Shown: piece by piece, positions 22,442-62,739 of the stretch | Position numbering within the stretch: the first letter of the stretch is position 1 | Layout: the number at the start of each line of letters is the position of its first letter | Source of the DNA: Clostridia bacterium | GTDB taxonomy: Bacteria; Bacillota; Clostridia; Oscillospirales; Acutalibacteraceae | NCBI GenBank assembly: GCA_017521925.1 | Contig: JAFXBG010000021.1 | Span: 1 to 64,000, forward strand | Direction: 5' to 3' | DNA: 64,000 nucleotides | Notes under the pieces: model-generated | The model's database searches: none | What the model was told of the DNA's origin: nothing | Seen by the model: only the letters and a program-made list of their open reading frames with translations | Position numbers and translations under genes: made by a program

Positions 22442-22543
22442 GCGGGTCAGCCACCCGCAGGGCATTTCGCCCGTTAGCCACGGTGGGCAGTTCGCCTTTG
22501 GATAGGTTAGTATGGAGGTAATCTTTCATTAACGGCGGGTCGG
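22442..22543 (+). repeat. Stop-codon-abutting repeat, copy A
   Basis: The element starts directly after the aminopeptidase TAA. Stem 1 is GCGGGT-CAGCC-ACCCGC, followed by GGGC-loop-GCCC. The hairpin pair is then partly repeated (CCGT-TAGCC-ACGG, GGGCAGTTCGCCT) before the conserved TTGGATAGGTTAG and TTAACGGCGGGTCGG end. It is the longest copy in the window. Confidence 0.85.
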
Positions 22544-22601
22544 TTTGGGTTTTAGTTGCAGGGGAGGGGTTATCCCTTTTAAAAGCTTTCCGTACAGGGT
22601 A

Positions 22602-22653
22602 TATTTCTCTCAGAGAAATACACAAATTGATAATAAAAAATTTGTATATTTTC
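22602..22653 (+). terminator. Hairpins ending the aminopeptidase transcript
   Basis: TATTTCTC-TC-AGAGAAATA is followed by a second hairpin, ACAAATT / AATTTGT, and an AT-rich tail ATATTTTC. The 22544-22601 stretch holds only a GGGGAGGGG/CCCTTTT partial hairpin. Confidence 0.5.
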
Positions 22654-22665
22654 ACTTTTAATTCC

Positions 22666-22694
22666 TTGACAAATATACGCCGAAGTGATACAAT
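22666..22694 (+). promoter_or_regulatory. Promoter of the pyrimidine operon
   Basis: TTGACA (22666-22671), a 17-nt spacer and TACAAT (22689-22694). The start of transcription would be near 22702, just before the PyrR-type leader. Confidence 0.85.
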
Positions 22695-22709
22695 ACTTTC
22701 AGCAAATCT

Positions 22710-22822
22710 TTAAGACGATACAGAGAGATCGGCAAGATTGCAGAATATTTATCTCGTGGTGTAGCAGTACGCCAATTTTGCGGTATATTCAGCCTTGTCG
22801 ATTTCGGCAAGGCTTTTGTTTT
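22710..22822 (+). promoter_or_regulatory. PyrR-type transcription attenuator
   Basis: The leader contains a PyrR-binding-loop-like hairpin, CGAT-ACAGAGAG-ATCG followed by GGCAAG, close to the known CAGAGAG loop. An antiterminator can form between CGGCAAG (22730-22736) plus GAATAT (22743-22748) and ATATTC (22785-22790) plus CTTGTCG (22794-22800). The terminator is GCCTTGTCG-attt-CGGCAAGGC with TTTTGTTTT (22792-22822). The two are mutually exclusive. By analogy with Bacillus, UMP-bound PyrR would favour termination. No pyrR gene lies in the window. Confidence 0.8.
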
Positions 22823-22853
22823 GCCTTGCTATATACTCTGGAAAGGAGAAGTT

Positions 22854-24071
22854 ATGAAAGAGCCGGTTAAAGCTAAAATATATGGTGCTGACAAATACCC
22901 TGAGCTTAGTGCCTTTATTTCTGATTTCTTCGCTGAGAATCCTGTTCTCGGTTTTCTTAATAATTCCCGTTTTGCTATATTTCCCGGTTTTTGCGATGTG
23001 CATGTGCATTTTCGTGAGCCGGGTTTTTCTTATAAAGAAACCATAAAAACGGGTAGTATAGCTTCAGCTCACGGCGGTTATACCGACGTCTGCACAATGC
23101 CGAATTTAAACCCTGTACCGGACTCAGTAGAGCATATCAAGGTCCAGCAGGATATTATCGACAAAGACGCAGTCATAAAGGTTCACCCTTACGCCTCAAT
23201 CACAATAGGCGAAATTGGCGAAGAGCTTGTTGATATGGACGCACTCAAAGATAAATGCATCGCCTTTTCTGACGACGGCAGGGGAGTGCAGGATGAAGAA
23301 ATGATGCGAAGTGCTATGCTTAAGGCAAAGTCCCTCGGCAAAATGATTGTTGCACATTGCGAGGTTAACGACCTTTTATTCGGCGGATATATTCACGACG
23401 GCGAATATGCCAAAGAGCATAACCACAAGGGCATCTGCAGTGAAAGCGAATGGAAGCAGATTGAGCGAGATATTAAACTAAGCAAAGAAACAGGTTGTAA
23501 ATATCACGTATGCCACATTTCCACCAAGGAAAGTGTCGATTTAATCCGCAAAGCTAAGGCTGAGGGTGTAGACATCACCTGCGAAACAGGACCTCATTAC
23601 CTGATTCTTGATGACAGTAATCTTCAGGAGCACGGCAGATTCAAGATGAATCCTCCTCTGAGAAGTAAGTCGGATAAAGAAGCTTTAATCGAGGGTGTCC
23701 TTGACGGCACAATTGATGTTATCGCCACCGACCACGCTCCCCACGGAGAAGAGGAAAAGTCAAGAGGCTTAGCTTTAAGCCCCTTTGGCATAACAGGAAT
23801 TGAAACCGCTTTTCCGCTTTTATACACAAAATTAGTAAAAAAGGGCATACTTACTTTAGAAAAGCTTGTTGAGCTTTTATGTATAAATCCCAGAGAAAGG
23901 TTTAATATTCCTTTTACCAACGACTTTGTTATTTGGGACTTACAGGAAGAGGTTTTAGTCAACAAGGATTTCTTCCTTTCAAAGGGTACAGCTACTCCTT
24001 TTGAAAACGAAAAACTTTTTGGTAAATGTGTTCTTACCGTTTCTGACGGCAAGATTTCTTATAAAGCATAA
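22854..24071 (+). CDS. pyrC: Dihydroorotase
   Basis: This 405-residue amidohydrolase cyclises N-carbamoyl-aspartate to dihydroorotate, step three of UMP synthesis. The metal-binding DVHVHFREPG is near residue 45, with HCEV, HISTKES and the terminal metal ligand in IATDHAPHG (near 300) all in place, as in class I enzymes. ATG 22854 was chosen because GAAAGGAGAAG lies just upstream, beyond the leader terminator; the longer frame would start inside the terminator. It is the first gene of the pyr operon. Confidence 0.95.
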   Translation: MKEPVKAKIYGADKYPELSAFISDFFAENPVLGFLNNSRFAIFPGFCDVHVHFREPGFSYKETIKTGSIASAHGGYTDVCTMPNLNPVPDSVEHIKVQQDIIDKDAVIKVHPYASITIGEIGEELVDMDALKDKCIAFSDDGRGVQDEEMMRSAMLKAKSLGKMIVAHCEVNDLLFGGYIHDGEYAKEHNHKGICSESEWKQIERDIKLSKETGCKYHVCHISTKESVDLIRKAKAEGVDITCETGPHYLILDDSNLQEHGRFKMNPPLRSKSDKEALIEGVLDGTIDVIATDHAPHGEEEKSRGLALSPFGITGIETAFPLLYTKLVKKGILTLEKLVELLCINPRERFNIPFTNDFVIWDLQEEVLVNKDFFLSKGTATPFENEKLFGKCVLTVSDGKISYKA

Positions 24072-24088
24072 TACGGAGGTAGATTAAA

Positions 24089-30291: not shown

Positions 30292-31215
30292 ATGAAAAGT
30301 CTTATTGATATTTTGGATTTCACGGTTGAAGAAATCGACGAGCTTTTGAGCGTTGCCAATGATATTATTGCTAACCCTGTAAAATATAGCGAAATATGTC
30401 ACGGCAAAAAGCTTGCCACACTTTTCTTTGAGCCTTCAACAAGAACACGTCTTAGTTTTGAGGCAGCTATGTATGAGCTTGGGGGAAACGTTCTTGGCTT
30501 TTCTTCAGCAAATTCTTCATCTTCATCTAAGGGCGAAAGTGTTGCTGATACTGCCAAAATGGTAAGTTGCTATGCTGATATTATCGCTATGCGTCACCCA
30601 AAAGAAGGTGCACCCTTGGTTGCGGCAATGAACGCATCAATCCCTGTTATTAATGCAGGTGACGGCGGACATAACCATCCCACCCAGACACTCACCGATT
30701 TGCTTACAATTAACCGTGAAAAGGGAAGATTTGAAAACCTCAACATCGGTTTCTGCGGAGACCTTAAATTCGGCAGAACAGTACATTCCCTTATTAACGC
30801 AATGAGCAGATATAAAGGCAACACTATATATCTTGTTTCTCCTACAGAATTAAAACTTCCCGATTATGTTAAAAAGGACGTTCTGGACAAAAAGAACATC
30901 AAGTACGTGGAAACCCAGAGCTTAGACGAGGTTATGCCTGAGCTTGACATCCTCTATATGACCCGTGTTCAGCGTGAGCGTTTCTTTAATGAAGAGGAGT
31001 ATTTAAGACTTAAGGACAGATATATCTTGGTTCCCGAAAAGCTTGATAGTGCTAAAGAGGACTTAATAATTATGCATCCCCTTCCAAGGGTAAACGAAAT
31101 AAGCGTTGCAGTGGATGAAGACAGCCGTGCCTGCTACTTCCGTCAGGCTCTTTACGGCAAATACATCCGTATGGCTCTTATCTTAAAGCTCTTAAAGGAG
31201 GCAGGCACAATATGA
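30292..31215 (+). CDS. pyrB: Aspartate carbamoyltransferase catalytic subunit
   Basis: This 307-residue enzyme transfers carbamoyl phosphate to aspartate. The carbamoyl-phosphate site [12 protein letters not shown] is near residue 46, HPTQTLTDL near 126, and the aspartate-side MTRVQRERF and HPLPRVNEI follow. Length is normal. It overlaps pyrI by 4 nt (ATGA), so the enzyme is the E. coli-like regulated holoenzyme rather than the unregulated Bacillus type. Confidence 0.95.
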
Positions 31216-31631
31216 ATATAGACTCCATTAAAGACGGCTTTGTCATTGACCATATTACTGCAGGCAGAGCTATGCGTATCTACGAGCTTTTAGAGCTTTC
31301 AAAGCTAGATGTGCCTGTTGCTATTATTACCAACGCAGGCAGTAAAAAAATGGGCAAAAAGGATATTATCAAAATTGACGGTGACGTACCACTAAACCTT
31401 GAGGTTATCGGCTATGCCGACCCTAAGGTTACCGTTAATATTATCAAAGACGGCAAGCTTACCGAAAAGCTTACTATCCCAATGCCCGAAATCCTTACTA
31501 ACGTAATTTTTTGCAAAAATCCCAGATGTATTACTTCTGTAGAGCAGGAGATTAACCACATTTTCAAGCTGACAGATAAGGAAGAAAACGTTTATCGTTG
31601 CATTTACTGCGAGTCTAAAGCAGACCTTTAA
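31212..31631 (+). CDS. pyrI: Aspartate carbamoyltransferase regulatory subunit
   Basis: This 139-residue subunit binds allosteric nucleotides in its N-terminal domain and contacts PyrB through a C-terminal zinc domain. The four zinc ligands are in CKNPRC and CIYC. The start overlaps pyrB. Presence of pyrI means nucleotide feedback can act on the enzyme in addition to the leader attenuator. The stop codon abuts repeat copy D. Confidence 0.94.
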
Positions 31632-31703
31632 CCGTTATCTACAAAAGGCATTTCGCCTACGGATAGGTTTAATATATAGATGACCTTGATTAACGGCGGT
31701 CGG
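31632..31703 (+). repeat. Stop-codon-abutting repeat, copy D
   Basis: The element starts right after the pyrI TAA. The first hairpin is degraded, but AGGC-atttc-GCCT, the TTCGCCTACGGATAGGTTTA core, AGGT...ACCT pairing and the TTAACGGCGGTCGG end are kept. Confidence 0.8.
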
Positions 31704-31766
31704 TTTATTGCAGGGACAGACTCTGCAACTGTCCGAAACTTTTTGATATATTAATATTTATGTTCA

Positions 31767-31795
31767 AAAGCCTCGCTTAACAGCGGGGCTTTTTG
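31767..31795 (+). terminator. Pyr operon terminator
   Basis: AAGCCTCGC-ttaaca-GCGGGGCTT is followed by T4. An upstream hairpin, GGACAG/CTGTCC, lies at about 31714-31734. Confidence 0.8.
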
Positions 31796-32246: not shown

Positions 32247-33291
32247 GCTGTTAGAAAAATTAGCTGATACCCAAAGCCTTAATTCAGAAGAATACAAATT
32301 TCTTGTTGATAATTATAGTCAAGAAACCGCAGACTTTGCGTCACAATTAGCAGTAAAGAAACGCAAAGAAATTTACGGTAATTCTGTTTTTATACGCGGT
32401 CTTATTGAAATAAGCAACATCTGCAAAAACGATTGCTACTACTGCGGAATCCGTTGTTCTAACCGTAAGGCTGACCGTTATCGTCTTACTAAGGAAGATA
32501 TTCTTTCCTGTTGTGATTCAGGCTATGGTTTAGGTTTTCGTACCTTTGTTATGCAAGGCGGGGAAGACCCTTACTTTACTGATGAGGTTATGTGCGACAT
32601 AGTAACATCCATCAAAGATAAATACCCCGACTGTGCTGTAACCTTGTCATTAGGCGAACGAAAGAGAGATAGCTACCAAAAGCTTTTCGAAAGCGGAGCT
32701 GACCGTTATCTTCTCCGTCACGAAACCGCAGACAGCTGTCATTACAACAAGCTTCACCCTGAAAATTTAACCTTAGCAAACCGAATGGATTGTCTTAAAA
32801 ATCTGCGTGAAATCGGCTTTCAGACAGGTTGCGGTTTTATGGTAGGCTCTCCTTACCAGACCTCAGAGCATATAGCAAAAGACCTTAAATTTATCGAAAA
32901 TTTCAAGCCGGATATGTGCGGTATTGGCCCGTTTATCCCGCATAAAGACACACCTTTTAAGGACTTTAAGGCAGGCAGTGCTTCTCTTACCTGCTATCTT
33001 TTATCCATAGTTCGCCTTATTCATCCCCCTGTTTTGCTTCCTGCTACTACAGCGTTGGGAAGCTTGGGACAAAACGGCAGGGAAAAGGGAATTTTATCAG
33101 GTGCAAACGTAGTAATGCCCAATCTTTCTCCTGAAAGCACAAGGGCAAAATACGAGCTTTATAATAACAAACTCTCAACGGGTGCCGAGTCCGCCAACGG
33201 ACTTGAGGCACTTCGTAAAAATTTAAAGGATATCGGTTACGAAATTGTGACTAACCGCGGTGATGTAAGAAAGGAAGATAAGAATGAGTAA
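32233..33291 (+). CDS. hydE: [FeFe]-hydrogenase H-cluster maturase HydE
   Basis: This 352-residue radical-SAM enzyme takes part in making the dithiomethylamine-bridged diiron subcluster of [FeFe] hydrogenase. The SAM-cluster motif CX3CX2C is CKNDCYYC near residue 65, with GGEDP near 113 for SAM binding. The C-terminal BATS-like region contains TALGSLGQNGREKGILSGANVV, read in parts around 280. GTG 32233 is used, with AGGAG upstream, inside the end of the preceding gene. It overlaps hydG by 8 nt. Confidence 0.93.
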   Translation: MNSLKLLEKLADTQSLNSEEYKFLVDNYSQETADFASQLAVKKRKEIYGNSVFIRGLIEISNICKNDCYYCGIRCSNRKADRYRLTKEDILSCCDSGYGLGFRTFVMQGGEDPYFTDEVMCDIVTSIKDKYPDCAVTLSLGERKRDSYQKLFESGADRYLLRHETADSCHYNKLHPENLTLANRMDCLKNLREIGFQTGCGFMVGSPYQTSEHIAKDLKFIENFKPDMCGIGPFIPHKDTPFKDFKAGSASLTCYLLSIVRLIHPPVLLPATTALGSLGQNGREKGILSGANVVMPNLSPESTRAKYELYNNKLSTGAESANGLEALRKNLKDIGYEIVTNRGDVRKEDKNE

Positions 33292-34732
33292 CTATAATGT
33301 AAAATCAATGAAGGCAGAGGAGTTTATAAGCGATGCTGAAATCCGCGAAACTCTTGAATATGCCGAAGCTAACAAAAATAATATTGAACTTATCGACAGC
33401 ATTTTAGAAAAGGCAAAGCCCGTGAAAACTGACACAGGCTACGTGTGTGCAGGCCTTTCTCACAGGGAAGCTTCTGTTCTTCTTGCTTGCGAAATTCCCG
33501 AAAAGGTGCAGAAAATCTATGAAATTGCCGAGGATATCAAGCTTAAATTCTACGGTAACCGAATTGTTATGTTTGCACCGCTTTACCTTTCAAACTATTG
33601 TGTAAACGGCTGTGTGTACTGTCCTTATCACCTTAAAAACAAGGATATTGCCCGTCGTAAATTAACTCAGGATGAAGTAAAGGCAGAGGTTATAGCTTTG
33701 CAGGATATGGGACACAAGCGACTTGCAATTGAAGCAGGCGAAGACCCCAAGAATAACCCCATTGAGTATATTCTGGAATGTATCAACACCATTTACAGCG
33801 TTAACCACAAAAACGGTGCAATTCGACGTGTTAACGTTAATATTGCCGCTACAACCGTTGAGAATTACCGAAAACTCCGTGATGCAGGCATCGGTACATA
33901 CATACTTTTCCAGGAAACTTATCACAAGGAAAGCTACCTTGAGCTTCACCCAACAGGCCCCAAGCACGACTATGCTTATCATACCGAAGCAATGGACAGA
34001 GCTATGGAAGGCGGTATTGACGATGTAGGTTTAGGTGTGCTTTTCGGTCTTGAGCTTTATAAATACGAGTTTGCAGGCTTACTTATGCATGCCGAGCATC
34101 TTGAGGCTGTTCACGGTGTAGGTCCTCACACTATAAGCGTACCTCGTCTTAAAAAAGCAAACAACATCGACCCCGATAGCTTTGATAATGGTATTGATGA
34201 TGATACTTTCGCAAAAATCACCGCTTGTATCCGACTTGCAGTACCCTACACAGGTATCATTATTTCCACCCGGGAATCTCAGGAGGTTCGCTCACGTCTT
34301 CTTAACTGTGGTGTTTCTCAGGTAAGCGGAGCTTCCCGTACATCTGTCGGCGGATACACCGAGGAAGAACGCCCCCACGATACCGAGCAGTTTGACGTTT
34401 CAGACCAGCGTACCCTTGACGAGGTCGTTCGTTGGCTTATGGAAAACGGTCATATCCCCTCATTCTGTACAGCTTGCTACCGCGAAGGCAGAACAGGCGA
34501 CAGGTTTATGAGCCTTTGTAAATCAGGTCAGATTGTCAATTGCTGTCACCCCAATGCACTTATGACATTGACCGAGTTCCTTGTTGACTACGCAAGTGAT
34601 GAAACAAAAGAAATCGGCTATAAGATGATAGAAGACGAACTTAATAAAATTACTAACCCCAAGGTTCTTGAAATTGCAAAAGATAACATCGAGAACATCA
34701 AAAATTCCAACCGCCGGGATTTCAGATTCTAA
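33284..34732 (+). CDS. hydG: [FeFe]-hydrogenase maturase, tyrosine lyase HydG
   Basis: This 482-residue radical-SAM tyrosine lyase makes CO and cyanide ligands for the H-cluster. The SAM-cluster motif is CVNGCVYC near residue 107. The C-terminal region carries the auxiliary-cluster cysteines in CTACYREGRTGDRFM with a later Cys in QIVNCCHPNA, the HydG-specific feature that separates it from ThiH. The start overlaps hydE. The stop codon abuts repeat copy B. Confidence 0.95.
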   Translation: MSNYNVKSMKAEEFISDAEIRETLEYAEANKNNIELIDSILEKAKPVKTDTGYVCAGLSHREASVLLACEIPEKVQKIYEIAEDIKLKFYGNRIVMFAPLYLSNYCVNGCVYCPYHLKNKDIARRKLTQDEVKAEVIALQDMGHKRLAIEAGEDPKNNPIEYILECINTIYSVNHKNGAIRRVNVNIAATTVENYRKLRDAGIGTYILFQETYHKESYLELHPTGPKHDYAYHTEAMDRAMEGGIDDVGLGVLFGLELYKYEFAGLLMHAEHLEAVHGVGPHTISVPRLKKANNIDPDSFDNGIDDDTFAKITACIRLAVPYTGIIISTRESQEVRSRLLNCGVSQVSGASRTSVGGYTEEERPHDTEQFDVSDQRTLDEVVRWLMENGHIPSFCTACYREGRTGDRFMSLCKSGQIVNCCHPNALMTLTEFLVDYASDETKEIGYKMIEDELNKITNPKVLEIAKDNIENIKNSNRRDFRF

Positions 34733-34810
34733 ATGGGTCAGCCACCCATAGGGCGGTTCGCCTGTGGATAGGTTAGATATAGTGAAAACCTATGTTTAAC
34801 GGCGTGTTGG
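34733..34810 (+). repeat. Stop-codon-abutting repeat, copy B
   Basis: The element starts directly after the hydG TAA. It is the clearest copy: ATGGGT-CAGCC-ACCCAT, then GGGCG-gtt-CGCCT, TGTGGATAGGTTAG, a third stem ATAGGT...ACCTAT, and TTTAACGGCGTGTTGG. It separates hydG from hydF. Confidence 0.88.
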
Positions 34811-34823
34811 ATATAAATATTCG

Positions 34824-34876
34824 AGAGTCAGAGTGTAGGGGGAGGGGTTGCCCCTCCCGAAATTTGCACTCTAAAT
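34824..34876 (+). terminator. Nested hairpin between hydG and hydF
   Basis: GGGGAGGGG-tt-GCCCCTCCC is enclosed by an outer AGAGTG/CACTCT pairing, just downstream of repeat copy B. It lacks a long T-run, so termination is uncertain. Confidence 0.4.
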
Positions 34877-34944
34877 TAAGCTTTACGGGAGCTTAAGCGG
34901 CTCCTATACAAAAAATGTTTCATTTTTTTCTAAGGAGGCAAAAT

Positions 34945-36144
34945 ATGAGCCTTAGTAATACACCGAGTGCCGAAAGAATTCACATTGGTTTTTTCGGACT
35001 TCGAAACGCAGGCAAGTCAAGCCTTGTCAATGCCGTAACAGGTCAGGAGCTTTCGGTAGTTTCAGACGTACTCGGTACCACCACCGACCCTGTAAAAAAA
35101 GCTATGGAGCTTTTGCCTTTGGGCCCTGTTGTTATCATTGATACTCCCGGTTTTGACGACACAGGCTATTTAGGCGAAAAACGTGTTTTAAAAACCCGCA
35201 AGGTTCTTGCGTCTGTTGATATTGCTGTCCTTGTAGTGGATGCTCAAAAGGGCGTTTCACAGGACGACAACACCCTTATTGAGCTTTTCAAAGAACGTAA
35301 GATTCCTTATGTAATCGCTTATAATAAATCGGATTTAACCGAGAAGAAAACAGAAAATAAAAACGAAATCGCTGTAAGTGCGGTAAACGGTAAGAATATC
35401 AGTGAGCTTAAAGAGCTTATAGGAACCCTTATAAACTCAAAAGAAGAAAAGCTCATACTTGCCGATTTGGTAAAAGCGGGTGACAAGGTGGTCTTGGTTA
35501 CGCCTATTGATGCCTCAGCACCTAAGGGAAGGCTTATTCTTCCTCAACAGCAAACTCTCAGAGAGCTTCTTGATTTACACTGCACCGCTGTAGTTTGTCA
35601 GCCTGAGGAGCTTAAAGCTGTTTTAGCAAGTTTTAATACAACCCCAAAACTTGTAATCACCGATTCTCAGGTTTTCGGCAAAGTTTCAAAGGATGTACCC
35701 GAAGACATAGCCCTTACTTCCTTTTCAATTTTATTTGCAAGGTATAAAGGAGATTTAGAAGCCTTGGTAAAGGGTGCTGCAACGTTAAAAAGCTTACAAG
35801 ACGGTGACAAGGTGCTTATAAGCGAGGGTTGTACTCACCACCGCCAATGTGGTGACATCGGCACAGTAAAGCTTCCAAACTGGATAAAGAGTTATACAGG
35901 CAAAAACATTGAGTTTAATTTTACAAGCGGCGGAGATTTTCCTGAGGATTTGTCGCAGTATGCATTGGTTGTTCATTGCGGCGGCTGTATGCTCAATAAC
36001 CGTGAAATGGCTTATCGCATAAACTTTGCCAAAGCAGAGGGTGTGCCAATTGTAAACTACGGTGTATTAATTGCACATATCCACGGAATTTTAAAACGTA
36101 GCCTTTCGCCATTTAAAAATCTTAAGGATATGTTAGGTGAGTGA
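34945..36144 (+). CDS. hydF: [FeFe]-hydrogenase maturation GTPase HydF
   Basis: This 399-residue scaffold GTPase carries the diiron precursor and loads it into the hydrogenase. The N-terminal GTPase has the P-loop GLRNAGKSSL near residue 15, DTPGFDDTG near 65 and NKSD near 120. The C-terminal cluster domain has CTHHRQCGD near 305 and the conserved HCGGC near 345. ATG 34945 is preferred because TAAGGAGG is 8-9 nt upstream; the longer frame has no ribosome site. Confidence 0.95.
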   Translation: MSLSNTPSAERIHIGFFGLRNAGKSSLVNAVTGQELSVVSDVLGTTTDPVKKAMELLPLGPVVIIDTPGFDDTGYLGEKRVLKTRKVLASVDIAVLVVDAQKGVSQDDNTLIELFKERKIPYVIAYNKSDLTEKKTENKNEIAVSAVNGKNISELKELIGTLINSKEEKLILADLVKAGDKVVLVTPIDASAPKGRLILPQQQTLRELLDLHCTAVVCQPEELKAVLASFNTTPKLVITDSQVFGKVSKDVPEDIALTSFSILFARYKGDLEALVKGAATLKSLQDGDKVLISEGCTHHRQCGDIGTVKLPNWIKSYTGKNIEFNFTSGGDFPEDLSQYALVVHCGGCMLNNREMAYRINFAKAEGVPIVNYGVLIAHIHGILKRSLSPFKNLKDMLGE

Positions 36145-39780: not shown

Positions 39781-40891
39781 TACTAAAAAAGCAAAGCATC
39801 ATCGTGAGCCATGGGTTCACATTGTCAAGCGTGACGACCTTCCTTGGTGGAAAGCTTGGCTTATCCGTATTTCTGCTATAGTAATCGCTATACTCCTTGT
39901 TGGTGTAATTTCAACACTTCTTACAAAAGTAAGCTTCTTAGAAGTTTATGAAGTTATGATCAAAGGCGTTTTCGGGCGTCTTTTCGAAGGTGGTTCCACA
40001 ACAATGCTGTGGAAGTTCCTGCAGGAAACCGCAATTTTGCTTTGTTTAGCCCTTGCAGTTACTCCTGCATTTAAAATGCGATTCTGGAACTGTGGTGCTG
40101 AAGGTCAGGCTCTTATGGGCGGTTTAGCATCTATGATTTGCATGATAGAGCTTGGTGATAAACTTCCTTACCCTGTGCTTTTAGGTGTAATTTTCCTTAC
40201 AAGTATGCTGGCAGGTGCTTTGTGGGGTGTAATTCCTGCAATTTTCAAGGCTCAGTATAACACCAACGAAACTCTCTTTACACTTATGATGAACTACGTT
40301 GCCACTCAGATTATCAAGTATTATGTTTACATTGAGGGCGGCGGTTCAAATACAATTCAGCCTGTAGCTGCAGGTAATCTTCCAATAATCGGCGATAATC
40401 GTTATCTTTTAAATGTTATTATCGTTGCTGTGCTTACAGTGGGTCTCTTTATTTATCAGAAATACAGCAAGCAGGGCTACGAAATTTCTGTAGTAGGTGA
40501 GAGCCAGAACACTGCAAAATACGTTGGTATCAACGTTAAAAAGGTTATTATTCGTACTATGATTATCTCAGGTGCAATCTGCGGTATTGCAGGTATGCTT
40601 TTAGTTGCAGGTACAGACCACTCCATCAACACCAACACCGTTGGCGGTCAGGGCTTTACTGCAATTATGGTTTCCTGGCTTGGTCAGTTCAATCCTTTTA
40701 TTATGGTACTTATGTCAGGTCTTGTTGTATTTCTCAGAATGGGTGCAGGCAAGGTTGCCGATACCTGTGCACTTAACGCATCATTTGCCGACATTGCTGT
40801 TGGTATTGTAATTCTTTTCGTAGTAGGCTGTGAGTTCTTTATCAGATATTCTGTTAAATTCAAACACAGCAATAAGGAGGTAAAGGCATGA
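39773..40891 (+). CDS. Nucleoside ABC importer permease (YufP-like)
   Basis: This 372-residue membrane protein of the BPD_transp_2 family has about eight to ten helices and forms the channel with the next gene product. MRFWNCGAEGQALMGGLAS near residue 102 and VVGESQNTAKYVGINVKK near 245 are the conserved family segments; the latter is the coupling helix. It overlaps genes on both sides (8 and 4 nt), so stoichiometric translation is likely. Confidence 0.93.
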   Translation: MTDTKKAKHHREPWVHIVKRDDLPWWKAWLIRISAIVIAILLVGVISTLLTKVSFLEVYEVMIKGVFGRLFEGGSTTMLWKFLQETAILLCLALAVTPAFKMRFWNCGAEGQALMGGLASMICMIELGDKLPYPVLLGVIFLTSMLAGALWGVIPAIFKAQYNTNETLFTLMMNYVATQIIKYYVYIEGGGSNTIQPVAAGNLPIIGDNRYLLNVIIVAVLTVGLFIYQKYSKQGYEISVVGESQNTAKYVGINVKKVIIRTMIISGAICGIAGMLLVAGTDHSINTNTVGGQGFTAIMVSWLGQFNPFIMVLMSGLVVFLRMGAGKVADTCALNASFADIAVGIVILFVVGCEFFIRYSVKFKHSNKEVKA

Positions 40892-41877
40892 TTATAACTT
40901 TCATTTGCCGAGCTATCTTACTTGGCGTACCTCTTCTTTTTGGTTCAGTAGGTGAGATTATCACTGAAAAATCAGGCCACCTTAATCTTGGTATTCCCGG
41001 CGTTATGTATGTTGGTGCCATAAGCGGTGTTATCGGTTCCTTTATGTACGAAAATGCCTGCGGTAACGACATTGCTGCTATGAATCCCTTCCTTTCTGTT
41101 TGCATTCCCTTGCTTTGCTCCATTATCGGCTCAGTTCTTATGGGTCTTATCTACAGCTTCTTTACAGTTACTTTAAGAGCTAATCAGAACGTTACAGGTC
41201 TTGCACTTACAACCTTTGGTATCGGTCTTGGTAACTTCTTCGGCGGTTCTCTCATTAAGCTTGTAGATAGCGATATGCCTTCAATTGCTCTTACAAAGAC
41301 AAGTAATTTCTTTACAACTAAGCTTCCTTTTGCAGACGACTTAGGTGCCGTTGGTGAAATTCTGTTTTCACACGACTTTCTAACTTATGTTGCGATAGCC
41401 ATTGCAATTATAGCTACTTTTGTGTTAAAACGTACACGTGTAGGTCTTAATCTTCGTGCTGTTGGTGAAAATCCTGCCACAGCCGATGCCGCAGGCATCA
41501 ACGTTACACGTTATAAGTATGTTGCAACTATGATTGGTTCTGCTGTTGCAGGTCTTGGCGGACTCCAGTACGTTTTTGCATATGCAAACGGCGTTTGGTC
41601 AAACAATGCCTTTGGTGACAGAGGCTGGATGGCTATTGCTCTTGTAATTTTTGCACTGTGGAATCCTTCCCTTGCTATTGCAGGTTCCTTCCTTTTCGGT
41701 GCTCTCTGCAACGCAAACAACTATATTCAGGGTCTTGGAACAGAAACTCAGGAGCTTTTCAAAATGCTTCCTTACGTTGTTACAATTATTGTTCTTGTAT
41801 TTACAAGTATGCGTAAAAAGCGCGAGCATCAGCCACCTGAAAGCTTAGGACTTTCATACTTCCGCGAAGAACGCTGA
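40888..41877 (+). CDS. Nucleoside ABC importer permease (YufQ-like)
   Basis: This 329-residue BPD_transp_2-family membrane protein is the second permease. ITEKSGHLNLGIPGVMYVGA near residue 25 and LRAVGENPATADAAGINVTRYK near 190 (coupling helix, read in parts) identify it. It is the last gene of the operon; its TGA abuts repeat copy C. Confidence 0.93.
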   Translation: MIITFICRAILLGVPLLFGSVGEIITEKSGHLNLGIPGVMYVGAISGVIGSFMYENACGNDIAAMNPFLSVCIPLLCSIIGSVLMGLIYSFFTVTLRANQNVTGLALTTFGIGLGNFFGGSLIKLVDSDMPSIALTKTSNFFTTKLPFADDLGAVGEILFSHDFLTYVAIAIAIIATFVLKRTRVGLNLRAVGENPATADAAGINVTRYKYVATMIGSAVAGLGGLQYVFAYANGVWSNNAFGDRGWMAIALVIFALWNPSLAIAGSFLFGALCNANNYIQGLGTETQELFKMLPYVVTIIVLVFTSMRKKREHQPPESLGLSYFREER

Positions 41878-41954
41878 GTGGGTCAGCCACACACGGGGCG
41901 GTTCGCCTGCGGAAAGGTTAGTTTTAGAGGCAACCCTAATAAACGGCGTGTTGG
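41878..41954 (+). repeat. Stop-codon-abutting repeat, copy C
   Basis: The element starts after the permease TGA: GTGGGT-CAGCC-ACACAC (one mismatch), GGGCG-gtt-CGCCT, TGCGGAAAGGTTAG, GGTT...AACC, and AAACGGCGTGTTGG. Confidence 0.87.
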
Positions 41955-41970
41955 TTTATTATGAATGTAA

Positions 41971-42006: not shown

Positions 42007-42032
42007 ATATCTTAACTTCCAAATTTACTTTT

Positions 42033-42108
42033 GTACCGCCGTTAATGAAGGCTAAGTTTTAACCTGACTTTTTTAAAGGCGGAAAAGCCCTGCAGGTGGC
42101 TGACCTGC
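42033..42108 (-). repeat. Stop-codon-abutting repeat, copy H
   Basis: On the minus strand the element follows the lipoprotein TAA directly: GCAGGT-CAGCC-ACCTGC, GGGC-loop-GCC, a GTCAGGTTAAA core and TTAACGGCGGTAC. The stem arms differ from other copies but still pair. Confidence 0.85.
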
Positions 42109-42873
42109 TTATACTGCAAAGTCGTAGTATTTTGTCAGTATATCCTCAACCGCTTCATCGCTGAGCTTTACAGACGTAGCGGTTAAATAGTTTGTAAGGT
42201 AAATATCCCTTGTCTGCATAATGTGAAGCTCATAACCGCTTAAGGTGCCTCTGAGGGTCAGACCCTTGTTGCATTTGTAAAGGGGATAAATAACTTCTCT
42301 TGACTCCTCTATGATTTTGGCATAGTCTGAACCATCATCTGCACCGTTGAAGTAACTGAAGATTTCTTCGCTGGTTTTTGACGATAACAAAGCTGTGCCG
42401 TAATCACCGTAATATGTGCACTGAAAACCGATTCTGTCGGCATCATCATAGGAAATCTGAGAGTATTCCTCGTAATTTTCCTGTTGGGTATAGTAGGTGC
42501 TCTGGATTTCCTCAGGCGGATAGGCAAGGGATTTATAGGTATTTGCTCCGTTTTTGTAAATGTCAATGTTTGACACCGCCAGAATTTCCCTCAGCCCGTC
42601 GTAATAGCCTGTGTAGCCAAGTTCCTCGCTTAAAAGCACAGGCACGTCAGACTCGGTAACGCTTATTCTGTTTGAATATACGTCGTTGAAAAAGTAGGGA
42701 ACACCCTCAGGAAGCTTCACAAAAGTTTTACCCTGAAAGCTTACGGTTTCTCTGTCTTCGCTTAAAACTGCGTGCCGTGCTTTCAGTTCGTCAAGCATAT
42801 CACAGCCTGTAAACATCATGCCCAGAAGTGCTATGAGAGCAATGACACTTAAAAGTCTGATAAGTTTTTTCAT
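42109..42873 (-). CDS. Lipoprotein, paralogue of the next upstream gene
   Basis: This 254-residue protein has unknown function. It has a lipoprotein signal (lipobox FTGC near residue 24), then a segment LKARHAVLSEDRETVSFQGK nearly identical to the paralogue, a shared VTESDVPVLLSE motif, and a divergent C-terminus. GGGAGGATAATT precedes the ATG. It is the last gene of the GntR/ABC operon, so it is probably a surface protein serving or protected by that exporter; that link is inferred. Confidence 0.8.
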   Translation of the reverse strand: MKKLIRLLSVIALIALLGMMFTGCDMLDELKARHAVLSEDRETVSFQGKTFVKLPEGVPYFFNDVYSNRISVTESDVPVLLSEELGYTGYYDGLREILAVSNIDIYKNGANTYKSLAYPPEEIQSTYYTQQENYEEYSQISYDDADRIGFQCTYYGDYGTALLSSKTSEEIFSYFNGADDGSDYAKIIEESREVIYPLYKCNKGLTLRGTLSGYELHIMQTRDIYLTNYLTATSVKLSDEAVEDILTKYYDFAV

Positions 42874-48900: not shown

Positions 48901-50457
48901 ATGAGTATTTTAAATGTAGAGCATCTGACCCACGGTTTTGGCGACCGTGCAATTTTTGACGATGTATCATTTCGCCTTTTAAAGGGTGAGCATATAGGAC
49001 TTATCGGTGCAAACGGCGAGGGTAAGTCAACATTTATGAATATCGTTACAGGCAAGCTTATGCCCGATGAGGGTAAGGTAGAGTGGTCTAAAAATGTCCG
49101 TGTAGGTTACCTTGACCAGCATACAGTGCTTTCTCAGGGTATGACCATTGAGGATGTTTTAAAGTCTGCTTTTTCTTATCTTTTTGATATGGAAAAGCGT
49201 ATGAACGAAATCTGTGATGCATTGGGAGAAGCTGACGAAGACAGTATGACTGAAATGCTTGAGGAGCTTGGCACAATTCAGGATACACTTGATTCTCACG
49301 ATTTTTATGTGATAGATGCCAAGGTGGAGGAAATTGCACGAGCTTTCGGACTTACTGATATCGGACTTTCAAGAGATGTAACTGATTTAAGCGGAGGTCA
49401 GCGTACCAAGGTTTTACTTGCAAAGCTCTTGCTTGAAAAACCCGACATTCTGCTTCTTGACGAGCCTACCAACTACCTTGACGAAGAGCATATTGCCTGG
49501 CTTAAGCGCTATCTTATTGACTATGAAAATGCCTTTATCCTTATATCTCACGATATTCCTTTCCTTAACGAGGTTATCAATATAATCTATCATATGGAAA
49601 ACTGCGAGCTTAACCGTTATGTTGGCGACTATAATCATTTTCAGGAAGTGTACGCCGTCAAAAAAGCTCAGCTTGAAGCCGCCTACAAGCGTCAGCAACA
49701 GGAAATCAGCGAGCTTAAGGATTTTGTGGCACGTAATAAAGCTCGTGTTTCCACCCGAAATATGGCTATGTCAAGGCAAAAACTTCTTGATAAAATGGAC
49801 GTTATTGAGCTGGCACACGAAAAGCCAAAGCCTGAGTTTAACTTTAAGGTTGGCAGAACGCCAAGTAAGCTTATTTTTGAAACCAAGGATTTGGTAATAG
49901 GATATACCGAGCCTTTGTCTAAGCCTCTTAATATCACTATGGAAAGGGGACAGAAGATAGCTTTAACAGGTGCCAACGGTATTGGCAAGACTACACTGCT
50001 TAAAAGTATCTTAGGTCTTATTCCAGCCCTTTCAGGCTCTGTTGAAAAAGGCGACAACCTGCTTATCGGCTATTTTGAGCAGGAGTATACAGGCGATATG
50101 ACCAATACCTGTATCGAGGAAATCTGGAAAGAGTTCCCCTCATTAATGCAGAACGAAGTCCGTGCCGCTTTGGCAAAATGCGGACTTACAACAAAGCATA
50201 TTGAAAGTCAGGTAAGGGTTTTAAGCGGCGGCGAGCAGGCAAAGGTAAGGCTTTGTAAGCTTATTAACAACGAAACCAATATACTTCTTTTAGATGAGCC
50301 TACAAACCATCTTGATGTTGATGCTAAGGACGAGCTTAAGCGAGCCTTGCAGGAGTATAAGGGCAGTATTCTGCTTATCTGTCACGAGCCTGAGTTTTAC
50401 CTTGATGTGGTTGATGAAGTAATCGACTGCACCCAATGGACAACCAAAATATTTTAA
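48901..50457 (+). CDS. ABC-F family ribosome-associated ATPase
   Basis: This 518-residue soluble protein has two ATPase domains and no membrane segment. Walker A motifs are GANGEGKSTFM near residue 38 and GANGIGKTTLL near 360; signatures are LSGGQRTKV and LSGGEQAKV; Walker B motifs are LLLDEPTNYLD and LLLDEPTNHLD. The linker between (about 255-300) has the charged P-site tRNA-interacting motif region. These proteins act on the ribosome; some give antibiotic target protection, others aid general translation, and sequence alone does not decide which. AAGGAG precedes the ATG; the TAA abuts repeat copy E. Confidence 0.93.
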   Translation: MSILNVEHLTHGFGDRAIFDDVSFRLLKGEHIGLIGANGEGKSTFMNIVTGKLMPDEGKVEWSKNVRVGYLDQHTVLSQGMTIEDVLKSAFSYLFDMEKRMNEICDALGEADEDSMTEMLEELGTIQDTLDSHDFYVIDAKVEEIARAFGLTDIGLSRDVTDLSGGQRTKVLLAKLLLEKPDILLLDEPTNYLDEEHIAWLKRYLIDYENAFILISHDIPFLNEVINIIYHMENCELNRYVGDYNHFQEVYAVKKAQLEAAYKRQQQEISELKDFVARNKARVSTRNMAMSRQKLLDKMDVIELAHEKPKPEFNFKVGRTPSKLIFETKDLVIGYTEPLSKPLNITMERGQKIALTGANGIGKTTLLKSILGLIPALSGSVEKGDNLLIGYFEQEYTGDMTNTCIEEIWKEFPSLMQNEVRAALAKCGLTTKHIESQVRVLSGGEQAKVRLCKLINNETNILLLDEPTNHLDVDAKDELKRALQEYKGSILLICHEPEFYLDVVDEVIDCTQWTTKIF

Positions 50458-50530
50458 CCGTCAGCCACGTTTGGCTATTTGCCTTAGCAGAGGTTACATA
50501 TTAAGATAAAACGCATCAACGGCATGTTGA
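50458..50530 (+). repeat. Stop-codon-abutting repeat, copy E
   Basis: The element follows the ABC-F TAA. Stem 1 is CGT-CAGCC-ACG, extended by pairing of the stop-codon AA with TT across one mismatch. GGC-tattt-GCC, GAGGTTACA and ATCAACGGCATGTTG follow. Confidence 0.78.
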
Positions 50531-50553
50531 TAAATTTATATAAATTATAAAAT

Positions 50554-53717: not shown

Positions 53718-53747
53718 GACAAGTTTCAACAGAAACTTGTCGTTTTC
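53718..53747 (+). terminator. Hairpin after the second tRNA 3'-end copy
   Basis: Perfect stem GACAAGTTTC-aaca-GAAACTTGTC is followed by GTTTTC. Confidence 0.65.
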
Positions 53748-53748
53748 A

Positions 53749-53918
53749 GTTATATTCGCCTTACGGCGAGTGATATGCACCTTCGATGCGTGATATTTGC
53801 TTCGCAAGTGATATGCCCACGGGCGTGTGTGGCGAATATAATATCACTGAAATCGTAGGTTTCAATATCACATTTTGCACAAGTAAAATATATAACTCCG
53901 TCATAGACGGAATATCAC
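53749..53918. repeat. Multi-hairpin array spaced by GTGATAT / ATATCAC
   Basis: GTGATAT occurs three times on the left (about 53770, 53790 and 53808), each followed by a small hairpin such as TTGC-ttc-GCAA or GCCC-ac-GGGC. ATATCAC occurs three times on the right (53840, 53864 and 53912), with GAAATC-gta-GGTTTC and CCGTC-ata-GACGG between. TATATTCGCC (53751-53760) pairs with GGCGAATATA (53831-53840). The region is non-coding. Confidence 0.8.
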
Positions 53919-55074: not shown

Positions 55075-55262
55075 TTGTCGGCACTCGCAACTTTTGCGTG
55101 AAGATTTTGCCTTAAAAATATTCCGACTCGGTACATAATACTTTCACCTTCTCAGGGGATGCCCAATGGTTTGTCTTCTGTTTGCGGCACAGAATAGAAA
55201 GTATTAAAAACGTACCTTACGGCGACGGGCTCGTACAGGATTTTCACCTGTTTCCTTTTAAG
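55075..55262 (-). promoter_or_regulatory. Cobalamin riboswitch
   Basis: On the minus strand, AAAAGGAAACAGGTGAAAAT at the 5' end matches the conserved opening of the cobalamin aptamer, followed by CCTGT, CGAGCCCGTCGCCGTAA, GGGCATCCCCTGAGAAGGTG and a GAGTCGGAATATTTT segment before the gene. It sits directly upstream of the DUF4430/S-component operon and should lower expression when B12 is plentiful. Confidence 0.85.
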
Positions 55263-55270
55263 ACTTTCAT

Positions 55271-55299
55271 ATTGTATCATAATCTACAGAAAGCTTCAA
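55271..55299 (-). promoter_or_regulatory. Promoter of the cobalamin-uptake operon
   Basis: Minus-strand TTGAAG (55299-55294), 17-nt spacer, TACAAT (55276-55271), just upstream of the riboswitch. Confidence 0.78.
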
Positions 55300-58626: not shown

Positions 58627-58676
58627 TGGAATTTGATACATAAAAAATATTCTGTAAAATCCGACATTATTTTACA

Positions 58677-58692: not shown

Positions 58693-58743
58693 GGAAATTG
58701 ATGTGATAGAATAAGCCTACAAAATTATATTGGAGGTTATTTT

Positions 58744-59232: not shown

Positions 59233-59240
59233 ATTTACTA

Positions 59241-59276
59241 AACACCGTCGTTTATGTTAACGGCGGTGTTTTATTA
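59241..59276 (+). terminator. Terminator of the DUF4358 gene
   Basis: AACACCGTCGTT / AACGGCGGTGTT stem with a short loop is followed by TTATTATT. Confidence 0.8.
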
Positions 59277-59308
59277 TTGCTTGATGCTGTTTTAATTCTT
59301 CAATCGTA

Positions 59309-59337
59309 TTGATACAAAAAAATTTTTATGTTACAAT
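59309..59337 (+). promoter_or_regulatory. Promoter of pcrA
   Basis: TTGATA (59309-59314), 17-nt spacer, TACAAT (59332-59337), 31 nt before the start codon. Confidence 0.8.
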
Positions 59338-59368
59338 GGTTAAAGTTATTTGAAGGGATTTTTTAGTT

Positions 59369-61606
59369 ATGGATACTCAGGAAATAAGAAAGCATTTTTC
59401 TAAAATGAACGATATGCAGCAGAAAGCTGTTTTTCATACCGAGGGTCCTCTGCTTATTCTGGCAGGTGCAGGCTCGGGCAAAACCACCGTGCTTGTTAAC
59501 CGTATTGCCTATATTCTGCAGTGCGGTCTTTGCGAGCCCTGGCAGATTTTGGCTATTACCTTTACCAATAAGGCGGCTACAGAACTTAAAGAGCGAATCT
59601 GCAAGTCTGTGCCTGAGGGCGGTGCTGATATCTGGGCAGCTACTTTTCACTCTACCTGTGCCAGAATTTTACGTCGCTTTGGCGACAGAATAGGCTACGG
59701 CTCTCACTTTACAATTTACGATACCGACGATCAGCGTCGCCTCATGAAGGATATCTTAAAAGAGCTTAACGTTGACGAAAAAATGCTTCCTCACCGTAAA
59801 GTCCTTGCTGCTATTTCTTCTGCAAAGGACGAAATGAAATCTCCTGAGCAGATGAAAACGGAGTCTTCTTTTGATGTTCGCCAGCAGACAATTGCCAAAG
59901 CCTACGGCATCTATCAGAAAAAGCTTAAAGATGCCAACGCAATGGATTTTGATGATATGCTTTTAAACACCGTTCTTCTTTTTGAAGAGCATAAGGATGT
60001 TTTAGAGCTTTATCAGCATCAGTTCAAATACATCATGGTAGACGAGTATCAGGACACAAACCGCGTTCAGTACCGTTTTGTAAGTTTGCTTGCTGGCGGT
60101 TCAGGCAATATCTGCGTAGTGGGTGACGACGACCAGAGTATTTACAAATTCCGAGGTGCAACTATTGAGAATATTCTTTCCTTTGAGGATACTTTCAAAA
60201 GCTCATCTGTAATACGTCTGGAGCAGAATTACAGAAGCACTAAGAACATCCTAGCTGCCGCTAACGATGTTATTCAGAATAATAAACAGCGAAAGGGCAA
60301 AACCCTATGGACACAGAACGAAGAAGGAGAAAAAATCACCCTTCATACAGCTTACGACGAAAGGGAAGAGGCTCGATTTGTTGCCGACACAATTCTTGAC
60401 GAAGTTGCAAAGGGTGCAAACTTCTCAGACTTTGCTGTTCTTTATCGTATGAATGCCCAGTCAAACTCAGTTGAGCAGGCTTTAGCCAGAGCAGGTGTAC
60501 CTCATCGTATTATCGGCGGTCACCGTTTCTATGACCGTGAAGAAATCAAGGATATGACAGCGTATCTGCAGGTTATCAACAATCCTGACGACAGCCTGCG
60601 TTTAAGCCGTATAATCAATAAGCCAAAAAGAGGAATAGGTGACACCACCGTTGGCAGAGCTCTTGATATTGGTGCCGGTATAGGCGAAAGTCTTTTTGAA
60701 GTAATCGGTCATGCTTCGGATTTTCCTGAGCTTTCCAGAAGTGCCGCAAAGCTAATGGCTTTTCATAGTTTGATTGCAGGTCTTATTGAAGCTTCAAACG
60801 ACGATGATACAACTCTCGGAGAATTATATAATCTTATCTTAGAGCATACAGATTACAAGAATTACCTCAAAGCAGAAAAAGAAAACGCCGACGAACGAAT
60901 TGAGAACATCGACGAATTGCTTTCTAATATAAACACCTTTGAGCATGAATACGGCGAAGAGGCTAATCTTTCAGCTTTTTTAGAGGAAATTTCACTGCAG
61001 ACAGATATTGATAACTATGATGCTGAGGCAGACTGTGCTACAATGATGACCCTTCATTCTTCAAAAGGCCTTGAATTTCCCACAGTCTTTCTTATCGGTA
61101 TGGAAGAGGGTATCTTTCCCTCAATGGCAGCATTGATGTCAGGCGAAGAGCTTGACGAAGAACATCGCCTTGCTTACGTTGGCATAACCCGTGCCAAGAA
61201 AAAGCTTTACCTTACCTGCACCCGCAGTCGTATGCTTTTCGGCTCAACCCAGCACAATAAAGTAAGCCGCTTTGCTGAGGAAATCAGCGAACAGTATCTT
61301 GAGCGTACAGGTGTTACCAAAGCTTTCGGCTCAGCTGAGAATTCTTATTCTTCTTCTAAAATCGGAATAGGCACAACAGCTAAATCCGCTTATAACCCTT
61401 ACGGAGTCAAGAAGCCTGCAAGCAGTACCAATGCCGCCACTGGTAATTCCTACAAAGTGGGTGACAAGGTAAAGCACAAGGTTTTCGGTATTGGTATGGT
61501 TATCAAGGCAGAGCCTATGGGTAAAGACACTATGATGGAAATTTCCTTCGAAAGCGTGGGTACAAAAACCCTTATGGCAAATTTCAGCAAAATGGAGAAA
61601 ATATAA
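59369..61606 (+). CDS. pcrA: PcrA/UvrD-type superfamily 1 DNA helicase
   Basis: This 745-residue 3'-5' helicase acts in nucleotide excision repair, plasmid rolling-circle replication and removal of RecA. All motifs are present: Q-motif near residue 16, Walker A AGAGSGKTTVL near 33, VDEYQDTN near 225, GDDDQSIYKFRGA near 252, the LEQNYRST motif near 290, LHSSKGLEFPTVFL near 565 and VGITRAKKKLYL near 610. The C-terminal Tudor-like module (VGDKVKHKVFGIGMV) binds RNA polymerase. The TAA abuts repeat copy F. An AAGGGA site precedes the ATG. Confidence 0.95.
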   Translation: MDTQEIRKHFSKMNDMQQKAVFHTEGPLLILAGAGSGKTTVLVNRIAYILQCGLCEPWQILAITFTNKAATELKERICKSVPEGGADIWAATFHSTCARILRRFGDRIGYGSHFTIYDTDDQRRLMKDILKELNVDEKMLPHRKVLAAISSAKDEMKSPEQMKTESSFDVRQQTIAKAYGIYQKKLKDANAMDFDDMLLNTVLLFEEHKDVLELYQHQFKYIMVDEYQDTNRVQYRFVSLLAGGSGNICVVGDDDQSIYKFRGATIENILSFEDTFKSSSVIRLEQNYRSTKNILAAANDVIQNNKQRKGKTLWTQNEEGEKITLHTAYDEREEARFVADTILDEVAKGANFSDFAVLYRMNAQSNSVEQALARAGVPHRIIGGHRFYDREEIKDMTAYLQVINNPDDSLRLSRIINKPKRGIGDTTVGRALDIGAGIGESLFEVIGHASDFPELSRSAAKLMAFHSLIAGLIEASNDDDTTLGELYNLILEHTDYKNYLKAEKENADERIENIDELLSNINTFEHEYGEEANLSAFLEEISLQTDIDNYDAEADCATMMTLHSSKGLEFPTVFLIGMEEGIFPSMAALMSGEELDEEHRLAYVGITRAKKKLYLTCTRSRMLFGSTQHNKVSRFAEEISEQYLERTGVTKAFGSAENSYSSSKIGIGTTAKSAYNPYGVKKPASSTNAATGNSYKVGDKVKHKVFGIGMVIKAEPMGKDTMMEISFESVGTKTLMANFSKMEKI

Positions 61607-61677
61607 TCGCAAGCCATGGTGTGGGTTCGCCTAGAGACAGGTTAACTTTAAGTATACCTTTTATCAACACGGACTGA
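61607..61677 (+). repeat. Stop-codon-abutting repeat, copy F
   Basis: The element follows the pcrA TAA. Stem 1 is degraded (AAGCCATGG), but GGGTTCGCCTAGAGACAGGT, the AGGT...ACCT stem and a TATCAACACGG end are kept. Confidence 0.72.
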
Positions 61678-61706
61678 AAAATATAAATAAACACAAATAA
61701 GAAATT

Positions 61707-61742
61707 AGAGTGGATGTTTTGTCAGCATCTGCTCTTTTTTTA
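61707..61742 (+). terminator. Terminator of pcrA
   Basis: A 10-bp stem AGAGTGGATG / CATCTGCTCT (two wobble pairs) is followed by T7. Confidence 0.75.
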
Positions 61743-61797
61743 TCACAAATAAAGAGAATACCCATAGTATGAAGTAAAAACTATTCGGAGGTAGCTT

Positions 61798-62607
61798 ATG
61801 AGTGATAATGCAAACATCTCGATGTGCGATAGCAACGATATCAAAAACGAATGTTCAAACGCCGTTTGTATTGACGCTATGCGTGTATACGACAGTTGCT
61901 CAGACAAGGATTGTATCAACGATTTAAGGGTTTTCTTTACTGAGGAGGTTCAGGGTCTTGTTGACGATGCGGTAAATGTTCGCCTGAGGGATGCTGAGGT
62001 AGTTACCGTTACTACAAACCTGGAGCCTGTTCCTTTTAACAAGGGCTTTTATTCGGTAGATATTACATTTTTCTTCAGCGTAACCCTTGACCTTTACACT
62101 ACTGCAGGCGGAGTACCTACACAGGTTCAGGGTACCGCAATGTTTAACAAAAAGGTTATTCTCTTTGGCTCAGACGGTAACGTTAAGGTCTTTTCGACCG
62201 AATACGGCTCAGACCCTGCAGAAGCTCAGACTTTAAGCCTGCCCAGAGTAAACGTTCAGGTTGCTAAGCCTGTTTCATTGTCAGCGAAAATTGGTTTATG
62301 CTCAAGCCTAAGCCGTTTTCCGTGCTCTGTTCCTCAGTGCGTGTGTAACTGCGTAGGCGGTGAGCCTACAGACGACGGTACAAGATGTGTTACCGTTACC
62401 TTGGGACTATTTTCTATTGTGCAGATAGAGCGTAATGTTCAGCTTCTGGTCCATTCTTACGACTTTTGTATTCCAAAGAAAGAATGTACTAATTCTACCG
62501 ATAATCCCTGCGAAGTATTCTCACGCCTTGATTTTCCAAAAGACCAATTCTTTCCTCCCAATATCTGCGACGCCAAAAATAACGGTTGCAATTGTGGCTG
62601 TAACTGA
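61798..62607 (+). CDS. Cys-rich protein of unknown function, possible spore-coat-type
   Basis: This 269-residue protein has no signal peptide and no membrane segment. It contains about nineteen cysteines, clustered at the N-terminus (SMCDSN through CSDKDCI), near residue 170-200 (CSVPQCVCNCVGG) and at the very end (NGCNCGCN). The middle (50-150) is beta-rich and acidic. Segments like VYDSCSDKDCINDLRVFF recur in uncharacterised proteins of spore-forming Clostridia, so a spore-coat-like structural role is possible but unproven. CGGAGG precedes the ATG. No sigma-A promoter is clear upstream. Confidence 0.75.
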   Translation: MSDNANISMCDSNDIKNECSNAVCIDAMRVYDSCSDKDCINDLRVFFTEEVQGLVDDAVNVRLRDAEVVTVTTNLEPVPFNKGFYSVDITFFFSVTLDLYTTAGGVPTQVQGTAMFNKKVILFGSDGNVKVFSTEYGSDPAEAQTLSLPRVNVQVAKPVSLSAKIGLCSSLSRFPCSVPQCVCNCVGGEPTDDGTRCVTVTLGLFSIVQIERNVQLLVHSYDFCIPKKECTNSTDNPCEVFSRLDFPKDQFFPPNICDAKNNGCNCGCN

Positions 62608-62634
62608 AAAAAGCTCCCGAAAGGGAGCTTTTTC
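62607..62634 (+). terminator. Terminator of the Cys-rich gene
   Basis: AAGCTCCC-gaaa-GGGAGCTT stem followed by TTTCG, with A-run upstream. Confidence 0.85.
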
Positions 62635-62669
62635 GTTTAAATAATTTATGGTTTGCATATAAATTTACT

Positions 62670-62739
62670 CGCAGTTAATAGGCGTTTGCCTGAACATTAA
62701 CCTGTCCAAAGGCGAATTGTCCACCGTGACTAACGGTGT
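62670..62739 (-). repeat. Stop-codon-abutting repeat, copy G
   Basis: On the minus strand the element starts one base after the phosphatase TAA: CACCGT-TAGTC-ACGGTG, a perfect 6-bp stem with arms unlike other copies. GGACAATTCGCCTTTGGACAGGTTAA and an AGG...CCT pairing with ATTAACTGCG close the copy. Confidence 0.83.

Follow-up and report, generated by a model that had tools for sequence, protein, structure and literature searches.

Repeats at the ends of bacterial genes are common, and their placement there is usually credited to the tolerance of intergenic DNA. The closest described systems are REP and BOX sequences. BOX is built from the modules boxA, boxB(n) and boxC, group IIC introns insert behind terminator stem-loops, and integron attC sites follow cassette stops, with R/L core boxes and an integrase that acts on cassette arrays; the CGTC group of REPs is said to have no RAYT transposase. 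In the available excerpts of published reports, most of the REPs that P. entomophila and S. wittichi have between convergent genes are <20 bp from 3' ends, the termini of GTAG REPs often supply a gene's stop codon, TAG (PMC3733652), and E. coli REPs no more than 15 nt from a stop reportedly reduce translation (PMC12306157). A similar excerpt on BOX of Streptococcus pneumoniae describes it as modular, with one module variable in number, regards it as parasitic, and counts 36 cases where the gene's stop codon lies inside BOX (PMC3049150). Here we describe a short hairpin repeat with eight copies in a window of 64,000 nt, i.e., positions 1 to 64,000 of contig JAFXBG010000021.1 (assembly GCA_017521925.1) from a Clostridia bacterium of the Acutalibacteraceae. 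With a spacing of 0-1 nt from the stop at many sites, the sense of the gene's strand and unrelated 5' hairpins across species, it turns how a repeat finds a stop codon into a testable question.

In each copy of the element, a core is preceded by one to four 5' modules. What we call a "module" is a hairpin closed by a loop of 5 nt (mostly TAGCC or CAGCC), with GGGCAATTC(C)GCC next to it on the 3' side, and a short linker (..AATTC or AAAGC) connects the module(s) to the core, which is composed of CGCCTTTGGAnAGGTT, an AT-rich variable stretch and TTAACGGCGGG. In short form the core reads CGCCTTTGGA...ACGGCGG, with CGCC-TTTGGA...ACGGCG as its hairpin. Inverted convergent pairs and tandem arrays of the element also occur, and at one locus (L307 in genome G061) a module of ~33 nt (CCGTTAGCCACGGTGGGCAGTTCCGCCTTTTGA) is expanded in tandem 5' of a core.

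Stem 1, i.e., the hairpin of the 5' module, covaries strongly, as a first-pass annotation made from the window's sequence alone had proposed. Among 109 of 115 hits (the others being duplicates or lacking a recognisable loop), pair 3 is paired in 100 (shuffle mean 54.6, maximum 68), pair 4 in 94 (shuffle maximum 63) and pair 5 in 90 (maximum 61). The outer core stem, CGCC/GGCG, is invariant in 31 copies from several species, which had been selected with a pattern that already contained CGCC and ACGGCG, and the inner core stem (stem 2) is 69% paired with weak covariation. RNAalifold found five pairs only in our first alignment, where we think hairpin 1 was misaligned.

Like REPs and BIMEs, the element is a many-copy short hairpin repeat found mainly 3' of genes, in pairs and arrays. 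However, a REP is a single palindrome of 20-40 bp, whereas the element combines a hairpin module with a 51-column core; alignments of 28 and 31 copies lack (by eye) the unpaired GTAG or CGTC terminal tag; and the element often stands 0-1 nt from a stop, with a conserved core and a changeable 5' hairpin. The likeness to BOX, judged by modular plan alone, is that one module is repeated, but this module is 5'-terminal in the element and lies between two fixed ends in BOX, and many copies of the element are flush behind a stop. Placement behind terminators is shared with group IIC introns, but the element is far smaller, adjoins stops too and has no Rfam intron match at the copies searched, and the host genome, a draft 72.6% complete, has no RVT_1 hit.

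All eight window copies (Table 1) have their 5' edge 0 nt behind a stop codon (seven TAA, one TGA) and lie on that gene's strand, so the first-pass annotation was right about their number, position and orientation. Its wording that adjacency is strict and always present does not extend to the genome. We placed 59 of 61 hits in the host genome (G000, a draft of 1.41 Mb and 72.6% complete; copy E and G000:C6:19963 were left out) and, in its sister genome G026, 55 hits around the better-scoring of at least 80 copies, giving 107 arrays that are not all independent, as some sites are common by descent. The 5' edge lies -1 to +3 nt from a stop in 42 arrays and the stop lies within the first hairpin in 14, making 56 arrays that touch or span a stop; a terminator T-run precedes another 11 (10 within 3 nt), and the remaining 40 have neither. 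Likewise, the annotation saw no copy inside or upstream of an opposite-sense gene, but outside the window some copies are antisense to a neighbouring gene and adjoin what looks like the ribosome-binding site or -35 box of that gene. A fixed TAA target was considered but is not supported, as all three stops are used at flush arrays (TAA 33, TGA 5, TAG 4; control TAA 202, TGA 55, TAG 8; p=0.067), with TAG somewhat over-represented (4/42 vs 8/265).

Placement was also scored with a script, in which an array is "flush" when a hairpin with 4 bp or more begins no more than 2 nt from the stop. This rule misses some visibly flush copies, and its null rate is 32 of 812 element-free open reading frame (ORF) ends. 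In 40 stretches first viewed after the rule was set, 26 arrays follow a stop at a distance of 75 nt or less, and 12 of these are flush. The corresponding counts are 19 of 34 in distant lineages of the genus (54 arrays, one T-run-flush) and 6 of 8 in G146, a genome of another family (12 arrays, one T-run-flush), the loci of both having been viewed before the rule was written. These tests used 51/56 and 67/72 of two hit sets and 12/13 of the hits in G146. The same stop placement is seen in species, one of them from another family, where this core is joined to unrelated 5' hairpins, and in some genomes, RGIG4202 among them, placement is clearly looser or partly lost.

The element family is patchy: some species are rich in copies, and close relatives have no detected ones. 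In the host genome, the core pattern matches 36 times when as many as 2 mismatches are allowed (the reversed pattern 0 times), and 61 copies are detected at E<=0.1 with a covariance model, R1. Scanning 59 genomes with R1 gave hits in 13 (host included), all within one genus: 58 in G000, at least 80 among 81 scored candidates in G026, 15 in G018, 7 in G006 and 1-3 in each of the others. Further genomes gave 16 (RGIG2200, goat colon), 52 (SIG571) and 107 (RGIG4202, roe deer colon), and R1 also hits further species of the genus weakly, with the core in common and different 5' hairpins. A core-only model, R2, built from 31 of 35 cores with CGCC and ACGGCG fixed by the selection pattern, has hits in 20 of 36 genus genomes (host included), e.g., 52 in G000, 61 in G006 and 79 in G026. 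Over 245 sampled genomes of the order, under stricter filters, R2 hit the host genome and G146 only, and G146 (13 hits at E<=0.05) is the one genome with hits among 41 of its family.

The first-pass annotation knew of no described family of this kind, and the searches agree. Rfam covariance models gave no gathering-score match over the window copies, nothing at E<=1 for copy B and nothing at E<=0.5 for six loci, and among the papers listed by literature searches none describes such a stop-flush repeat. Carriage by phages or plasmids appears unlikely: an exact pattern search gave no match among viral contigs, and copy B alone as query has none in phages and plasmids.

In relatives, the element is missing from most orthologous sites. 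We found hydG orthologs in 32 of 35 genus genomes and compared 20; the element stands behind hydG in G000 and G026 and is absent from the other 18, and in 14 of these 18 the next start lies within ~60 nt of the stop (by eye). Among ABC-F orthologs, two of seven carry the element. In G016, which has zero R1 and R2 hits, 40 stretches were compared, where 31 of 102 gene-end queries matched up to the stop and 0 of these 31 carry the element, although the matches include one gene's repeats and low-identity matches that are possibly paralogs. With copy number in one genus ranging from 0 to about 80 and orthologous sites mostly empty, we infer that the element spreads, and it was probably gained at sites such as those behind hydG and the ABC-F gene instead of being ancestral there. 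Where G000 and G026 share a site, module number and hairpin sequence differ, and many such pairs retain the flush placement. Across 18 orthologous pairs, the partner's core has a median similarity rank of 14 of 55 (chance ~28) and ranks 1-2 in 5, so descent is visible in some pairs only, with flanks too diverged to separate replacement from fast change.

Our preferred reading, with a probability of roughly 0.57, is that the element is a non-autonomous, modular hairpin short interspersed repeat, REP/BOX-like but with unusually precise placement. This fits a suggestion of the first-pass annotation, a repeat with a very specific target. The element would spread by insertion: where a stop codon ends, or directly behind a terminator T-run, the base of a new copy's first hairpin would be attached. 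Joining would occur on the transcribed strand and leave the native stop and downstream spacer in place, with a trans-acting enzyme presumably handling the single-stranded hairpin. In mRNA, a hairpin directly behind the stop may influence the ribosome as it terminates, as reported for the E. coli REPs above, and if so, the effect would extend to dozens of genes in each genome at once.

Several observations weigh against this reading. The stop lies 4-40 nt upstream in 9 of the 107 arrays, and 31 fall in the script class with neither stop nor T-run, although several of these 9 + 31 look flush by eye (misplaced edges, extra modules) and stand outside the count of 42. The 40 stretches contain only 12 stop-flush and 2 T-run-flush cases among 44 arrays, which is weaker than in G000 and G026. 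Judged with loose motifs, two of the remaining edges lie at a parS-like palindrome, TGTTTCACGTGAAACA, at one site common to both sister genomes (L073, G000:C1 ~20223; L129, G026:C60 ~3840). Three others are close to what look like antisense ribosome-binding sites, and two are close to -35-like boxes in antisense; the stop/terminator rule explains none of these. The ends of the element also behave differently, as the 3' edge has no pile-up like that at the 5' edge: 61 downstream terminators start at <=13 nt in 7 cases, 14-40 nt in 28 and farther in 26, and 43 of 49 antisense stops are at least 44 nt away. No pair of filled and empty sites had alignable flanks on both sides, which left no target-site duplication to read, and the empty relatives may have lost the element.

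Results on a mobilising enzyme fall on the same side. Y1_Tnp (PF01797) has 0 hits in the incomplete drafts of G026 (93% complete, about 80 copies) and G018, and its single hit in G000 is an IS200-like Y1 gene (L031, G000:C5:30918-31244, minus strand) in a 3.3-kb locus without the element. The only RVT_1 hit in four genomes is in G026 (L326, G026:C20:114726-115364), where the C-terminus of the neighbour resembles a variable region, and the hit appears to belong to a diversity-generating retroelement of phage type. Both Y1/RAYT enzymes and a reverse transcriptase were thus rejected as mobilisers.

The element could instead be a functional RNA of the 3' untranslated region (3'-UTR), its stop distance held by selection for ribosome release, for protecting mRNA 3' ends or for translation coupling, with copies elsewhere as by-products; we regard this as fairly unlikely. 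It would account for the sense strand, the 0-1 nt spacing at many stops and a stem 1 whose structure is held while its sequence varies, and the effect of stop-proximal E. coli REPs, as far as the excerpt goes, is a precedent (PMC12306157). Selection on sense RNA should tolerate G.U above A.C, and in 296 cores the outer pairs show such an excess of G.T over A.C (pair 1, 90 vs 4; pair 2, 179 vs 7; pair 3, 71 vs 12), although core T.G is typical of whole clades and the excess may reflect few changes passed on by descent. Core pair 4, the outermost tested, is reversed (G.T 40, A.C 65), and pairs 3-5 of stem 1 contain 10 G.T and 10 A.C among 351 cells. As a conserved regulatory RNA, the 3'-UTR element suggested by the first-pass annotation is not supported. 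It does not suit the stem 1 counts, the range in copy number, the lack of the element behind orthologous genes in most compared relatives or the seemingly unrelated host genes of the window, and copies at terminators cannot affect an upstream reading frame in the same way. Some RNA role of the element is possible.

It is also conceivable, at lower odds, that the repeat is mobile and that the end of an expressed unit itself directs where it inserts. Here it would join a stop or terminator T-run on the transcribed strand, e.g., via cut or terminated mRNA 3' ends or DNA opened there, and lineages would exchange its 5' hairpin yet retain the placement rule.

Random intergenic insertion followed by one-sided DNA loss, continuing until the 5' edge reaches a functional boundary (a stop, T-run, parS, ribosome-binding site or -35 box), seems doubtful. 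It would explain why the 5' edge adjoins several unrelated types of functional sequence, but it predicts that about half of the native stop-to-terminator spacer remains 3' of the element. In element-free ORFs this spacer has a median of 15 nt (n=84; <=1 nt in 2.4%), and 3' of stop-located elements the median is 25.5 nt (n=24; p=0.002), i.e., at least the whole spacer, of which the extra 10 nt may be an unrecognised element tail. The native spacer therefore seems to lie 3' of the element, which favours joining at the stop over erosion, and the lack of a pile-up at the 3' edge also counts against loss of DNA.

A GTAG-type REP family moved by a RAYT is very improbable, for although such REPs are also short hairpin repeats near gene 3' ends in inverted and tandem pairs and often provide a TAG stop (PMC3733652, as excerpted), the alignments show no such terminal tag by eye, and G026, G018 and G000 gave no Y1_Tnp gene with the element in its locus.

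Table 1. Copies of the element in the window, with the genes that they adjoin
Copy	Position	Strand	Structure	Adjoining gene(s)	Other
A	22442..22548	+	hairpin GCGGGT-CAGCC-ACCCGC, then CCGT-TAGCC-ACGG, then core (two 5' modules)	flush with TAA of M29 peptidase gene 21203-22441	
D	31632..31709	+	first hairpin decayed, core present	behind TAA of pyrI 31212-31631	site without copy in sister genome G026
B	34733..34815	+	single hairpin module, core	hydG 33284-34732 on 5' side, hydF 34915-36144 on 3' side	
C	41878..41959	+	single module, core	behind TGA of permease gene 40888-41877	three modules at same site in G026
H	42026..42108	-	single module, core	behind TAA of minus-strand gene 42109-42873	convergent with copy C
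E	50458..50535	+	first hairpin short, core present	behind TAA of ABC-F gene 48901-50457	
F	61607..61682	+	degenerate, first hairpin decayed	behind TAA of pcrA-like gene 59369-61606	
G	62659..62739	-	module CACCGT-TAGTC-ACGGTG, core	behind TAA of alkaline phosphatase gene 62740-63972 (minus)	

Seven of the host genes bear out their first-pass names (Peptidase_M29, PyrI, HydG, BPD_transp_2 permease, ABC-F, PcrA-like helicase and alkaline phosphatase), with the helicase scoring below the PcrA cut-off and hence PcrA-like only. The "lipoprotein" upstream of copy H, a product of 254 aa, was not confirmed, having no Pfam match at 1e-5. The common structure given for the copies, a hairpin plus core, held in general, the departures being the second 5' module of copy A and the decayed first hairpins of D and F.

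Other repeats accompany some copies. A second palindromic repeat, GTAGGGGCGATTATTAATCGCCC or GTAGGGGAGGGGTTxCCCCTCCC, stands behind several of them (window 34836-34859 and the 3' flanks of L132, L135 and L143) and begins with GTAG, as classical REPs do. A third repeated motif, a small hairpin of about ATAATCGCAC..GTGCCACC, is found in the 3' flanks of L065, L082, L086 and L124. At window 31771-31788 and at L130, L137 and L098 there is a terminator-like hairpin, CCCCGCTTAACGGCGGGG, with a T-run; it has TTAACGGCGGG in common with the 3' end of the element, and one may be derived from the other. The window also contains a Gut-1 RNA at 53747-53819 (RF01706, 62.4 bits) and a cobalamin riboswitch at 55096-55292 on the minus strand.

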